In this document: positions 1,875 to 5,993 of the stretch, piece by piece
Layout of the letters: every line of letters starts with the position of its first letter
How positions within the stretch are numbered: position 1 is the first letter of the stretch
The notes under the pieces: generated by a model
Database searches by the model: none
What the model was told of the DNA's origin: nothing
What the model saw: only the letters and a program-made list of their open reading frames with translations
Made by a program: the position numbers and the translations under genes
From: Planctomycetales bacterium
GTDB taxonomy: Bacteria; Planctomycetota; Planctomycetia; Isosphaerales; Isosphaeraceae
DNA: 34,815 nucleotides
NCBI GenBank assembly: GCA_027451885.1
Contig: DAIDHX010000045.1
Location: 1 to 34,815 of the forward strand
Reading direction: 5' to 3'

Positions 1875-2013
1875 GCGCGCCAACGGGCTCAGTTCGCGGC
1901 GGCTCCGGCCCGCCCGCGCTGCGATTCTCGCTGGGTGAAACCAGCCCAGCGTGAAAGCATCCCAGGGAAGAAATCAAACAGCTAACGGCCTCTGTTTGAC
2001 GTGGGCGGCGCTC

Positions 2014-3339
2014 ATGCTCCTCGAATTTCGCCTCGGTAACTTCCGGTCCTATGCCGCGGAGAAGCGTTTTAGCAGGGTTGCGGGATCCGGGAAGGAGCTT
2101 CCCGCGAACACGGTGACTGTTGAGGGGTTCAACCGCTCCCCGCTGCCACGGAGCGCAGTGATTTACGGAGCCAATGCTTCGGGAAAGAGCAACCTTGTCC
2201 AGGCGTTTGCCTTCTTCCGGCACTTCGTGCTTCACTCCTCCGAGACGCGACAAGAGGGGGACTGGATACCTGTGTACCCCTTCTTGCTCGACCCGAAACT
2301 CGCCAGGGATCCGAGTCACTTCGAGATGACGTTTCTCCTGGGGGGCGTGCGCCATCAATATGGGTTCGTCGTGTCTCGGGAGCGTGTGCACGAGGAATGG
2401 CTGACGGTTTATCCCAGGGGTAAGCCGCAGGAATGGTTCCACCGGACCGTGGACCTGAAGGGGAAATCCACATGGGCCTGGAGCCGGACTCACCTCCGCG
2501 GAGCCAAATTGCAGCTCGCCGAGCGTACCCGGGAGAACGCCCTTTTTCTTTCGGTCGCGGCCCAGTGGAACCATACGCAGATCAAACCGGTCTATCACGG
2601 GTTCCGCGGCAAGCTCAAGGTCTTGCGCCGAGAGACCAACGTGATGGGACACACGCGAGCCCAGCTCCTCAGCAACCGGACGTTTCGCGAGTGGCTAACC
2701 AGGGTCCTGAAGGCGGCTGATATGGGAATCTGCCGGGTGCTCGCCAGGGAGAGCAAGAGCCATAAGGATCGTTTCCGTTTTCCGAGTGAGATGCCGGCCG
2801 AAATGGGGAGCCTGCTTTCGGATGAGTCCCCGGGCAAGCCCTGGGTGGAGGTTCGAACCACCCACCGCTTGCCTGGCACGCGCGGCGAGGTTGAGTGGGA
2901 CCTGGATCAGGAGTCGGACGGTACACAGCGGATGCTCGCGCTCCTTGGACCAATCCACGACGCGCTTCGGGATGGGGCGGTCCTGGTCATGGACGAGCTA
3001 GACACAATCCTACATGCTTATATGACCATGGCGCTTGTTCAGCTCTTCAGCCGTCCCACGACAAACCGAGGAAACGCCCAGCTTGTTTTCACGACGCACG
3101 ACACGAGCCTGTTGGACCCGACCCTCTTCCGCCGAGATCAGATCTGGTTCACTTCAAAGGACGGCTCAGGCCAGACGGATCTCTATTCGCTCGAGGACTT
3201 CAGCCCGAGGAAAGGAGAGGCGCTCCAGAAGGGGTATCTGGCTGGGAGGTACGGTGGGATCCCGGACCTTGTCGACCTTGAGTTTTCTCAAATTCAGAAG
3301 CCGCAGGGTGAGGCGGAACTCGTGAGCCCGGAAGGATGA
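2014..3339 (+). CDS. AAA family ATPase, RloA-like (AAA_15/AAA_21), predicted defence ATPase
   Basis: The 441-aa product starts with MLLEFRLGNFRSYAAEK, the usual beta-strand opening of overcoming-lysogeny/RecF-like ATPases of the AAA_15/AAA_21 group. This is why ATG 2014 is preferred over the in-frame GTG at 1951. Walker A is GANASGKS at residues 52-59. A signature-like segment SDGTQR sits at 301-306. Walker B is VLVMDELD at 323-330, and FTTHDTSLLD follows as the switch/H-loop. These are ABC-type ATPase features, intact and in order. The next gene encodes a RloB-type protein, and ATPases of this group are typically paired with RloB. By analogy with other AAA15 plus TOPRIM pairs such as PARIS, the ATPase may sense or scaffold an effector, but no activity can be read from sequence. 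Confidence 0.85.
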   Translation: MLLEFRLGNFRSYAAEKRFSRVAGSGKELPANTVTVEGFNRSPLPRSAVIYGANASGKSNLVQAFAFFRHFVLHSSETRQEGDWIPVYPFLLDPKLARDPSHFEMTFLLGGVRHQYGFVVSRERVHEEWLTVYPRGKPQEWFHRTVDLKGKSTWAWSRTHLRGAKLQLAERTRENALFLSVAAQWNHTQIKPVYHGFRGKLKVLRRETNVMGHTRAQLLSNRTFREWLTRVLKAADMGICRVLARESKSHKDRFRFPSEMPAEMGSLLSDESPGKPWVEVRTTHRLPGTRGEVEWDLDQESDGTQRMLALLGPIHDALRDGAVLVMDELDTILHAYMTMALVQLFSRPTTNRGNAQLVFTTHDTSLLDPTLFRRDQIWFTSKDGSGQTDLYSLEDFSPRKGEALQKGYLAGRYGGIPDLVDLEFSQIQKPQGEAELVSPEG

Positions 3340-3411
3340 ACCCGCCCGGCGCCTGGGTGTTCGGTTGCATGAAACGGGCATTGTTGCGGGCGTTGTTGGG
3401 GGGTGTATCGA

Positions 3412-4245
3412 GTGGGCAGGCGATCGCGCGTGAGACATGAGAGCGAGCTTGGCCGAAGCCAGCCATCACGAAGGCCGCGCGAGTGCATCCTGGTCGTCTG
3501 CGAGGGCGAGCAAATGGAGCCCAATTACCTCAAGGCTTCACGCAAGCGTATCAATCTGAGCACGCTCGACGCGGAAATCGTCGGTGAAGCGGCCGAGATT
3601 TTGGGCGTGGTGGAGGGAGCCAGGCGGCTGAAGGAGGAGCGTGAGGCCGCGTCGAGCGAGAGCGTGCGTCTTGCTCCCTGCGACGAGATCTGGCGCGTGG
3701 TCGACACCGAGAGGCGGAATGATAATCCATCCCGGGAGCGAGGCGTCGACCGCGCGTCCGCGCTCGGGTTCCGTCTCGCCTGGTCCAATCCATGCTTCGA
3801 TTACTGGCTACTGTTGCACTTTGAGCGGATCGGCCGCATTTTCGATGGATTTGCCGTACTCCGGCCGTTCCTGAGCAAGCACATCCCTCGCTATGAGAAG
3901 AGCAAGGACTACTCCAGGCAGCTTGCTCCGCGTCTCCCTACCGCAATCGAAAACTCCAGACACATCCATCGGGCGCAGTGGCAAGATACCCCGCGGCAGA
4001 TCGACTGTAATCCCGCCACCACTGGCCGCGAGCTCGTCGAACGGCTTATGGATGTTGCTGGGATCACGATCGCTGAATATCAGGCTCGTTACCCGATGCC
4101 AGGGACAAAGCCGAAGCAGACGAAGCTGAAGAGGACGAAGCGTGCCCGTCGTTCCTGGCTCGGAGCTTCTCGGTGTTCCTGGAGCGTCCTTGGGCTACCT
4201 GATGCGGCCGGTTGCGTGGGCTGGATTCGTGCGGCATCGAGCTGA
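3412..4245 (+). CDS. RloB-like protein (TOPRIM-like nuclease candidate)
   Basis: The product (about 277 aa) has the RloB hallmarks in order: a basic N-terminus (RRSRVRHESELGRSQPSRRPRE), the strand CILVVCEGEQMEPNYL with the acidic residue of CEGE, then EIWRVVDTERRND as a second acidic strand end, and NPCFDYWLLLHFE. The first two match a TOPRIM-like arrangement of a conserved Glu followed by Asp; the last is typical of the family. Start at GTG 3412 is chosen because a run of G at 3398-3403 sits 8 nt upstream; GTG 3403 is possible. It begins 72 bases after the ATPase gene on the same strand, so co-expression is likely. The last 40 or so residues are Lys/Arg/Ser/Trp-rich and unlike the family; a late frameshift or a natural tail are both possible. 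Confidence 0.8.
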   Translation: MGRRSRVRHESELGRSQPSRRPRECILVVCEGEQMEPNYLKASRKRINLSTLDAEIVGEAAEILGVVEGARRLKEEREAASSESVRLAPCDEIWRVVDTERRNDNPSRERGVDRASALGFRLAWSNPCFDYWLLLHFERIGRIFDGFAVLRPFLSKHIPRYEKSKDYSRQLAPRLPTAIENSRHIHRAQWQDTPRQIDCNPATTGRELVERLMDVAGITIAEYQARYPMPGTKPKQTKLKRTKRARRSWLGASRCSWSVLGLPDAAGCVGWIRAASS

Positions 4246-4492
4246 GCAAAAACGACCTACAGCGAGGCTGGAGGCATACCTGGCAAGCATTTTCACCACG
4301 CGGAGGAAAGGGCGCTGGCGTGGGTGACGGAAAGACGGGGCGCCTGGTGTGGGTTGTCGCGTGGGTGGGGCCGAATCTGCCGCGTGGGGCGGTCCGTTCC
4401 GCGCTCTTTCACCCCGCGGTCTTGACGCTGGCGGGATTTGGCCCAAACTAGTACTTGCGCTCTGGTTGGGCGCACTTTGAAGGAGATTGCGT

Positions 4493-5047
4493 ATGCGACT
4501 TCGTCTCGCGGCCGCGATCCCCGTCGTGGTGGCAACCATCGCAGTGGTGGGCGCCAGCAGGGCGGGAGATCCTGTGAAGTCTGGCCTCGGGATCGGTGAC
4601 ATTTGCGTTCCATTTGATGTGGACGACGTCACCGGGCCGAACAAGGGCACGACTCTCTGCTATCGCTGAAGGTACGGTTCCTCCCCGGTCGTTTGCGTGT
4701 TCGCCCGCGCAACGTCCGAACCCTTGGCCAGTCTGGTCAAGCAGATCGATGAGAAAATAGGCGAAAACAGCAAGCTCAAGGCGTTCGTCGTCTTGCTTGC
4801 GACGGACAGCAAGAAGGCTTCGAGCGAATTGTCCGAGCTCGCGAAGAAGCACGAGATCAAGCACGTCCCGCTCACGATGCTCGGCGAACCCGACGGTCCC
4901 CCCCAGTACGACCTCACGAAAGAGGCGGGAATCACGGTCCTGATGTGGCTCGATGGCAAGGTGAAGGTGAACCACGCCTACAAGGGCGAGTTGACCGACA
5001 AGGACATTCGCACCATCGTGGCTGACATTCCCAGGATTCTCGAGTAA
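4493..5047 (+). CDS. Exported thioredoxin-like protein with in-frame TGA: candidate CxxU selenoprotein (otherwise a nonsense-interrupted gene)
   Basis: Read from ATG 4493 (AGGAG at 4481-4485), the frame encodes a signal peptide (MRLRLAAAIPVVVATIAVVGASRAG) and a short domain up to TTLCYR, then a TGA at 4667-4669. It continues without another stop for 125 codons to TAA at 5045-5047. Continuing through TGA gives LCYR-x-RYGSSPVVCVFAR, then a thioredoxin-like alpha/beta domain ending in KVNHAYKGELTDKDIRTIVADIPRILE. From memory, planctomycete exported relatives have LCYRCKxG...PVVxVFAR, so the TGA falls on the second cysteine of a CxxC redox motif (C56, position 59). A SECIS-like hairpin follows at the right distance. 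The full length would be 184 residues. The downstream part has no plausible start or ribosome binding site of its own. Alternatives are a TGC/TGT-to-TGA nonsense mutation or a sequencing error. The gene ends at a strong terminator. Confidence 0.75.
4687..4717 (+). promoter_or_regulatory. Bacterial SECIS-like hairpin after the in-frame TGA
   Basis: The RNA can fold as follows: G4687-G4688 pair with C4716-C4717, a U-U mismatch follows, 4690-4693 (CGUU) pair with 4711-4714 (AACG), U4694 lies opposite G4709-C4710, 4695-4697 (GCG) pair with 4706-4708 (CGC), and the apical loop is UGUUCGCC (4698-4705). The stem starts 17 nt after the TGA and the loop 28 nt after it. Bacterial SECIS elements place the loop about 16-37 nt after UGA, with a G in the first two loop positions. 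The E. coli fdhF element has an unpaired U three pairs below a loop containing GU, as here. The structure is also protein-coding, so chance pairing in GC-rich DNA must be excluded. Confidence 0.5.
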
Positions 5048-5138: not shown

Positions 5139-5288
5139 TGCGCAGCGGTGCGGGTTCGCGTGGTTTGCTGGCGGCGGTTGCCTGGTTTGGGCGTGGAAGC
5201 TGGGGGATTGCCCTGGCGTGGCGGCGGGGGGATAATCCGGGGCGTTGCGGCCTGAGAGAGAATGGGATTCTCGTGTGATTGAGTGTGC

Positions 5289-5993
5289 ATGCCAAGGGCA
5301 GCCCGATCGATTCCCGGCGGTTACGCGTACCACGTGTTGTGCTGTGGGCAGGGCGCGGATGTGGTTTTTCATGACGCGAGCGAGTTTGCCGCGTTTCAGG
5401 GATTGATGGCGGAGGCGTCGCTGCGTGTGGGGTTGCCTGTGGCGGCGTACTGTTTGCTGCCGAGCCAGGTTCGTCTTGTGCTTTTGCCGCGTGGCGATGG
5501 CGTGGTGAGCCGCTGGATGCACTGGTTGTTGACGACGCATGCGAGCCGTTACCGGCAGCGGCATGGCACGCGTGGGCCGATCTGGCGCGGGCGGTTCCGG
5601 GCGTTTCCGATCGAGACGGGGGAGCCGCTGGCGGCTGTGATCCGCCATGTGGAGCGGAATCCGCGGTGTGCGGGGCTGGTGCCGCGGGCGGAGGATTGGC
5701 GGTGGTCGAGCCTGTGCTGGCGGAGCGCGCCCGAGCATGCGCCCGTGCGGCTTGAGCGGATCCCGCAGGTGGATCAGCCGGGCTGGGGGGCGAAGGTGGA
5801 ACGGGGGCTGTGCGAGGCGGAGCTTGAACAGATCGCGGTCTCGATCCGCCGCGGCCGACCATTTGGTTCCTCGTCCTGGGTGCGAGAGACGGTTTTGAGG
5901 CTGGGGCTGGAATCGAGCGTGCGTCCCCGCGGCCGCCCGCGCCTGGAAGCGGGGGAGAGTCTGGACACGCGCGACCGCCTGGGAACGCGCTAG
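5289..5993 (+). CDS. IS200-like / REP-associated transposase homologue with all catalytic residues replaced
   Basis: The 234-aa product aligns along its length with Y1-type transposases of the RAYT group common in planctomycetes: PRAARSIPGGYAYHVL at the start, YCLLPSQVRLVLLP in the middle, RGRFRAFPIET, VIRHVERNPRCAGLVPRAEDWRWSSL, and RGRPFGSSSW...LGLESSVRPRGRPR at the end. The usual HUH motif (NHWH) is SQVR here, so the histidines are Gln60 and Arg62. The Tyr of RYVERN is His120. The frame is nevertheless uninterrupted, which suggests it is kept for something other than transposition, for instance DNA binding, or that it decayed recently by substitutions only. I saw no clear flanking REP palindromes. 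It stands 82 bases upstream of ribF. The start at ATG 5289 lacks a clear ribosome binding site. Confidence 0.8.
   Translation: MPRAARSIPGGYAYHVLCCGQGADVVFHDASEFAAFQGLMAEASLRVGLPVAAYCLLPSQVRLVLLPRGDGVVSRWMHWLLTTHASRYRQRHGTRGPIWRGRFRAFPIETGEPLAAVIRHVERNPRCAGLVPRAEDWRWSSLCWRSAPEHAPVRLERIPQVDQPGWGAKVERGLCEAELEQIAVSIRRGRPFGSSSWVRETVLRLGLESSVRPRGRPRLEAGESLDTRDRLGTR

Follow-up and report, generated by a model that had tools for sequence, protein, structure and literature searches.

A probable Cys-x-x-Sec selenoprotein family of planctomycetes with a candidate SECIS hairpin about 60 nt downstream of the UGA codon

Introduction

In the folds of thiol-disulfide oxidoreductases and thiol peroxidases, the reactive cysteine begins the helix that follows the first central strand. 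TlpA/ResA and AhpC-TSA proteins (PF00578) have a canonical active-site Cys, and TlpA/ResA proteins are exported. A single selenocysteine (Sec) in a CxxU or related motif is found in the SELENOW-like, AhpD-like, Trx7/PDZ, and Sec.1/Sec.2 thioredoxin-like selenoproteins. For planctomycetes, our search of the open-access literature found selenoproteins only in PMC4807772, in the accessible part of which strains P1 and P2 have Sec machinery and the selenoprotein fdhA.

The bSECIS model of bacterial SECIS elements asks for a G in the first two loop positions, a loop of 3 to 9 nt, and a stem of 4 to 16 bp. For most bacterial elements, the distance from the UGA to the apical loop is 16 to 37 nt, with a subset of elements falling outside the model (2026 review, PMC13188914). 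Here, we describe a gene in a 34,815-nt stretch of planctomycete DNA (the window) whose product shares a CxxU motif with the selenoproteins above and a predicted fold with TlpA/ResA and AhpC-TSA proteins. Its probable SECIS has the short stem and G-U loop of bacterial elements such as that of Escherichia coli fdhF but lies 60 to 63 nt from the UGA, with a second conserved hairpin in between.

Results and discussion

A single in-frame TGA

The features of the gene are collected in Table 1. The frame translates as MRLRLAAAIPVVVATIAVVGASRAGDP...TTLCYR, a stop, RYGSSPVVCVFAR...RILE, and a final stop. The sole internal stop is the TGA, after which 125 codons stay open until TAA, as the first-pass annotation of this DNA had stated. 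The start that it proposed, an ATG with a ribosome binding site, was also found, with AAGGAG lying 7 nt upstream. The signal peptide that it named is plausible by eye, with a charged N terminus, a hydrophobic core, and SRA/G. We found no conserved operon around the gene within 1.5 kb.

Table 1. Coordinates in the window of the gene and its proposed elements
Feature	Position	Strand	Basis or remark
Ribosome binding site AAGGAG	4480..4485	+	7 nt before ATG at 4493; sequence
Probable selenoprotein gene, 184 codons (TGA as Sec) plus TAA stop	4493..5047	+	Homologues, alignments, pN/pS
Probable signal peptide, residues 1-25, cleavage near SRA/G	4493..4567	+	By eye; low pLDDT at residues 1-20
Putative redox motif Cys56-Tyr-Arg-Sec59 (TGC TAT CGC TGA)	4658..4669	+	Alignments
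TGA, probable selenocysteine codon 59	4667..4669	+	Frame, homologue column, machinery coupling
Hairpin 1, proposed bridge; conserved stem-loop in the segment from UGA to hairpin 2	4683..4721 (core 4686-4718 in the window's copy)	+	
SEPL, residues 75-78, at about the canonical CxxC/peroxidatic Cys place, without Cys	4715..4726	+	Model secondary structure, profile alignment
Hairpin 2, probable SECIS, CUUGGCCA-GUC-UGGUCAAG; AGUCU loop region 4730-4734	4723..4741	+	

The TGA column across homologues

A homologue search gave matches in 32 of 294 sampled planctomycete genomes and in 24 of 45 genomes of the same order; most of the genomes compared are draft assemblies. In the Sec column, 32 gene copies from 30 planctomycete genomes have TGA, and 19 genomes have Cys. 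Close homologues in the same taxonomic family (23 copies in 21 genomes) each have exactly one TGA, always in this column. Other planctomycete lineages have TGA or Cys there, with TGA scattered over the phylum, and the Cys forms (TGC or TGT) come from other families of the same class. The only exception among clear homologues is a Ser (CYAS, in L020). Both Cys56, three residues ahead of the TGA, and Cys/Sec59 are nearly invariant in the alignments. On a tree built without the Sec column, the distribution of TGA and Cys needs at least three changes. Relatives thus have either CxxU or the CxxC that the first-pass annotation had given for them.

A nonsense mutation, a pseudogene, or a base-call error would also appear as a single internal stop in one sequence. 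That explanation is refuted, and its probability is negligible: the identical TGA stands in 30 genomes of several families, and the part after it is under purifying selection. A read error is excluded by the recurrence of the TGA in the genomes of many relatives, and the earlier view that a random nonsense mutation did not place it there holds. Downstream of the TGA, comparison of the window's gene with its nearest relatives gave pN of 0.19 to 0.26 and pS of 0.49 to 0.60 (0.195 and 0.60 with L033; 0.192 and 0.514 with L034). With pN well below pS, this part is being conserved as protein.

Several copies deserve separate mention. Two genomes have tandem duplicates (L046/L057 in G332 and L048/L056 in G334) with TGA in both copies, the second reading CYVU and not CYRU. 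In L020 (G264:C96), CYAS is followed in frame by the apparent beginning of another thioredoxin domain (VVVVDLWALW), and that genome has selB and tRNA-Sec, with selA not found. Four distant homologues in the same taxonomic family (L053, L054, L055, and L058) have no Cys at the Sec column.

Coupling to the selenocysteine machinery

We scored 77 genomes for selB, tRNA-Sec, and selA. Two or more of these were present in all 30 genomes with a TGA homologue compared to 1 of the 19 genomes with a Cys form (Fisher p 1.6e-12). All three were found in 24 of the 30 TGA genomes, and the other six, where one is missing, are draft assemblies. None of the three was found in 18 of the 19 Cys genomes; the remaining one, G266, has them all. 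Its homologue (L016, G266:C9) is a Cys form with the machinery kept, possibly a recent loss of Sec to Cys. Within the same taxonomic family, a TGA homologue was present in 21 of 31 machinery-positive genomes versus 0 of 14 machinery-negative genomes (p 1.2e-5). The first-pass annotation had pointed to selA, selB, selC, and selD as genes to look for, and the window's own genome has all four: selB encodes 643 amino acids with the SelB winged-helix domain, the tRNA-Sec has anticodon UCA and scores 69.5 bits, selD is present, and selA is split into two fragments, both cut off by contig ends.

Readthrough of the UGA without Sec, in which a suppressor tRNA or a change of code inserts another residue, would leave an open frame that looks identical. 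We regard this as exceedingly unlikely, since it is at odds with the strict coupling to selA, selB, and tRNA-Sec, with Cys as the replacement residue, and with a SECIS-like loop common to fdhA; moreover, internal TGA codons are absent from other genes of the same genome, e.g., selB and selD. The reading of the TGA as Sec is supported, at the level of sequence, by the conserved column, the machinery coupling, and the coding constraint downstream. With Sec and Cys forms, and presence and absence of the machinery, in one phylum, the family offers a natural series for Sec-Cys exchange.

Predicted fold and the place of the CxxU motif

An AlphaFold2 model made with 53 relatives has a mean pLDDT of 90, mostly 92 to 98 in the mature domain, and shows a single domain formed by both halves flanking the TGA. 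A fold search with this model returned thiol-disulfide oxidoreductases and thiol peroxidases, among them FetE (Z 16.8, rmsd 2.2, 137 residues aligned), Tpx (Z 16.3), and ResA (Z 15.7), which supports a predicted thioredoxin/peroxiredoxin-like fold. The earlier label of a thioredoxin-like protein therefore stands on the confident model and the fold search, although no Pfam model matches; PF00578 itself matched none of the 53 family members at E 0.05.

The motif is not where that label would put it. In the model, the first central strand spans residues 66 to 71 and its helix spans residues 76 to 91. Cys56 lies directly before a short helix (residues 57 to 61) ahead of that strand, with Sec59 in the first turn. 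When profiles were aligned with AhpC-TSA proteins from the same genome (probability 93), CxxU again fell ahead of the strand, and SEPL came to lie approximately where TlpA/ResA and AhpC-TSA proteins have their canonical active-site Cys. Thus, the CxxU redox center proposed in the first-pass annotation is borne out as a CxxU/CxxC motif of the relatives but not as the usual thioredoxin site. In the model, the geometry of Cys56 and Sec59 is like that of usual CxxC motifs, which suggests a redox function. That a thioredoxin fold should carry CxxU away from its usual site is a structural question in itself.

The model also bears on whether the UGA could serve mainly as a selenium-dependent stop. 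The gene would then yield a short peptide, with readthrough now and then or a restart farther downstream (e.g., at GTG 4697), and the full protein would be a minor product. Competition by RF2 does leave bacterial UGA recoding incomplete, and recoding in E. coli is given as 30 to 40% in the accessible part of PMC4513850. Nevertheless, the parts on both sides of the TGA are required for CxxU and are predicted to form a single fold in the mature domain. We consider a mainly terminating UGA very unlikely and favor synthesis of the full-length selenoprotein.

Hairpin 2 is a probable SECIS

Beyond hairpin 1, the profile of synonymous change has a stronger block at codons +18 to +24 (CCY TTG RCC AGT YTG GTC AAR), which is nearly invariant though the genes have otherwise diverged. 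This block forms hairpin 2, with the sequence UUGACCA-GUU-UGGUCAA and variants. Across 30 copies, all 240 of 240 pair cells are standard, with double changes at five of the eight pairs. These counts were never reached in 500 shuffles, and slid versions paired at 49% or less. RNAalifold, run unsupervised, recovered the helix. With codon-preserving shuffles, the mean z was −2.7 for hairpin 2 and −2.0 for hairpin 1, compared to −0.74 to +0.21 in other segments of the gene; Cys homologues gave no such signal in either hairpin region (z of −0.3 to −0.7).

A hairpin with an RGUYU loop 60 to 63 nt after the UGA is present in 29 of the 32 TGA genes versus 0 of 20 non-TGA homologues. The exceptions are L028, without hairpin 2, and L026 and L027, with an AGGUU loop. 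The loop (A-GUY-U or GGUCU) and the stem of 7 to 8 bp agree with the bSECIS loop and stem rule of PMC13188914, but the spacing lies outside its 16 to 37 nt. An Rfam scan of the locus gave no score near the gathering threshold, and we found no precedent in the open-access literature for a bacterial SECIS at about 60 nt.

The loop has counterparts closer to the UGA in other genes. Among fdhA TGA genes of the same and related planctomycetes, 11 of 12 have an RGUYU-loop hairpin (GGUCU) 18 nt after the UGA, and GGUCU also occurs in five copies of the new family (L018, L021, L023, L050, and L051). The fdhA of the window's genome (L102, G000:C219) has its TGA near contig position 958 and a GGUCU hairpin 18 nt after it; in the deiodinase-like gene of this genome (L123, G000:C95; TGA at local positions 1129 to 1131), an AGUUU loop follows the UGA by 16 nt. 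The probable SECIS loop of the new family is thus about three times farther from the UGA than these loops of the same organism.

Taken together, hairpin 2 is probably the SECIS, judged as a covarying RGUYU hairpin with atypical spacing that SelB would bind. Such spacing questions the 16- to 37-nt rule for finding bacterial selenoproteins, so that searches based on this rule may miss others.

Two further searches were set aside. Applied alone, the published bSECIS constraints passed 10 of 32 TGA genes and 6 of 20 non-TGA genes, which does not discriminate, and they were dropped as a classifier. In a motif search for further copies of hairpin 2 in the same genome, only the window's copy was exact. 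A one-mismatch match inside selD, near its 5′ end, was judged to be chance because a control pattern matched as often overall.

Hairpin 1 and the spacing question

Folding of each TGA gene placed hairpin 1 at about 19 to 51 nt after the TGA. It covaries less than hairpin 2 (75% of cells paired) and is weak in L018, L026, and L027; over both hairpins, 11 of 22 pairs show double changes. Hairpin 1 alone was our first choice of SECIS and was demoted after the stronger synonymous block was seen at codons +18 to +24.

The same selenoprotein could still use hairpin 1, with its loop about 30 nt after the UGA, as the SECIS, and hairpin 2 might be something else, e.g., a palindrome in the DNA that a regulator recognizes or a brake on translation. 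The spacing would then be conventional, and the window's copy fits the published model (GUUCGCCC loop at 29 nt, −13.2 kcal/mol). Hairpin 1 is also selected at synonymous sites, and hairpin 2 is a near-palindrome at the DNA level as well. However, the loop G rule is broken in most copies of hairpin 1. Its loop also does not resemble the RGUYU loop that fdhA and the deiodinase-like gene have in common with hairpin 2. At one position of hairpin 2, 13 of 30 copies keep a G-U pair, which is compatible with an RNA stem but not with a palindrome in DNA, and hairpin 2 is absent from the Cys forms. We consider hairpin 1 an unlikely SECIS and retain hairpin 2 in that role.

How SelB on hairpin 2 could serve a UGA so far upstream was approached by folding the segment between the two with its first ten bases held open. 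The backbone path came to 21 to 31 nt (median, 24), which falls within the usual range, compared to an average of 26.6 nt for synonymous shuffles (p 0.02). Because shuffles already reach 26.6 nt, the shortening of the path is weak evidence by itself, and with so small a gain we propose the bridging role of hairpin 1 as a reading of the fold.

In the mechanism that we propose, SelB-GTP-Sec-tRNA(Sec) would bind the RGUYU loop of hairpin 2 during translation. Hairpin 1 would fold outside the ribosome and shorten the path. This would bring the A site, about 60 nt upstream, within reach of SelB, and UGA 59 would be decoded as Sec and not as a stop. Once its signal peptide is removed, the exported selenoprotein would have about 160 residues, and in the periplasm its Cys-x-x-Sec center would act as a selenol/thiol-disulfide center. 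In lineages that lack the Sec machinery, the protein is retained with Cys.

The analysis itself shows the conserved TGA column with its machinery coupling, the constraint on the codons downstream, both hairpins, the loop in common with fdhA, and the predicted fold. From these, we infer the binding of SelB to hairpin 2, the bridging by hairpin 1, the export, and the redox function. An exported Cys-x-x-Sec selenoprotein with a thioredoxin/peroxiredoxin-like fold, made with hairpin 2 read by SelB and hairpin 1 bridging, is in our view very likely the best explanation of the locus. We hold with less confidence, though still as the probable case, that the locus combines two novelties. One is a two-part SECIS at about 60 nt, in which hairpin 1 bridges and hairpin 2 binds the same SelB that serves elements at 16 to 18 nt in fdhA and the deiodinase-like gene. 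The other is a new exported thioredoxin-fold family with CxxU/CxxC at a new place in the fold.

Relation to described families

The window protein had no above-threshold match in Pfam or NCBIfam, and the 53 family members had no family in common there beyond weak matches. Weak matches to NF038285 (deiodinase-related) occurred in 11 of the 53 (best E 1.3e-4), the window protein not among them. Apart from these, neither the window protein nor the 53 members matched any selenoprotein family of a 2026 inventory that has an NCBIfam or Pfam identifier, and the family matches none of the Pfam or NCBIfam models of the SELENOW-like, AhpD-like, Trx7/PDZ, and Sec.1/Sec.2 groups.

We equated none of the 119 prokaryotic selenoprotein families of the inventory with the new family, and the accessible text of the inventory names no planctomycetes. 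The family is likewise not among the selenoproteins described in the accessible part of PMC4807772, and we found no paper on it in the open-access literature. A search of solved structures by sequence returned nothing useful. The suggestion of a new family in the first-pass annotation is thus in keeping with the Pfam and NCBIfam results and, as far as the accessible text of the inventory goes, with its absence from that list. The family appears to add to the selenoproteins of a phylum whose selenoproteome is little described; standard annotation cuts such genes at the TGA or misses them.

Neighboring and other selenoprotein genes

Just upstream of the gene, at 1951 to 4245 of the window, lies an abortive-infection pair with matches to AbiLi (2.7e-93) and AbiLii/RloB. 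An open reading frame at 5283 to 5993 resembles REP-associated transposases by eye and has no Pfam match. Elsewhere in the genome, the fdhA selenoprotein gene is cut by a contig end. The product of L123 combines an EF-hand with a deiodinase-like part (PF00837) and reads GSFTUGPF at its in-frame TGA, making it another selenoprotein gene. L124 (G000:C260) is TlpA-like, with DGUGPC at the canonical active site and a GGUC-loop hairpin about 31 nt after the TGA.
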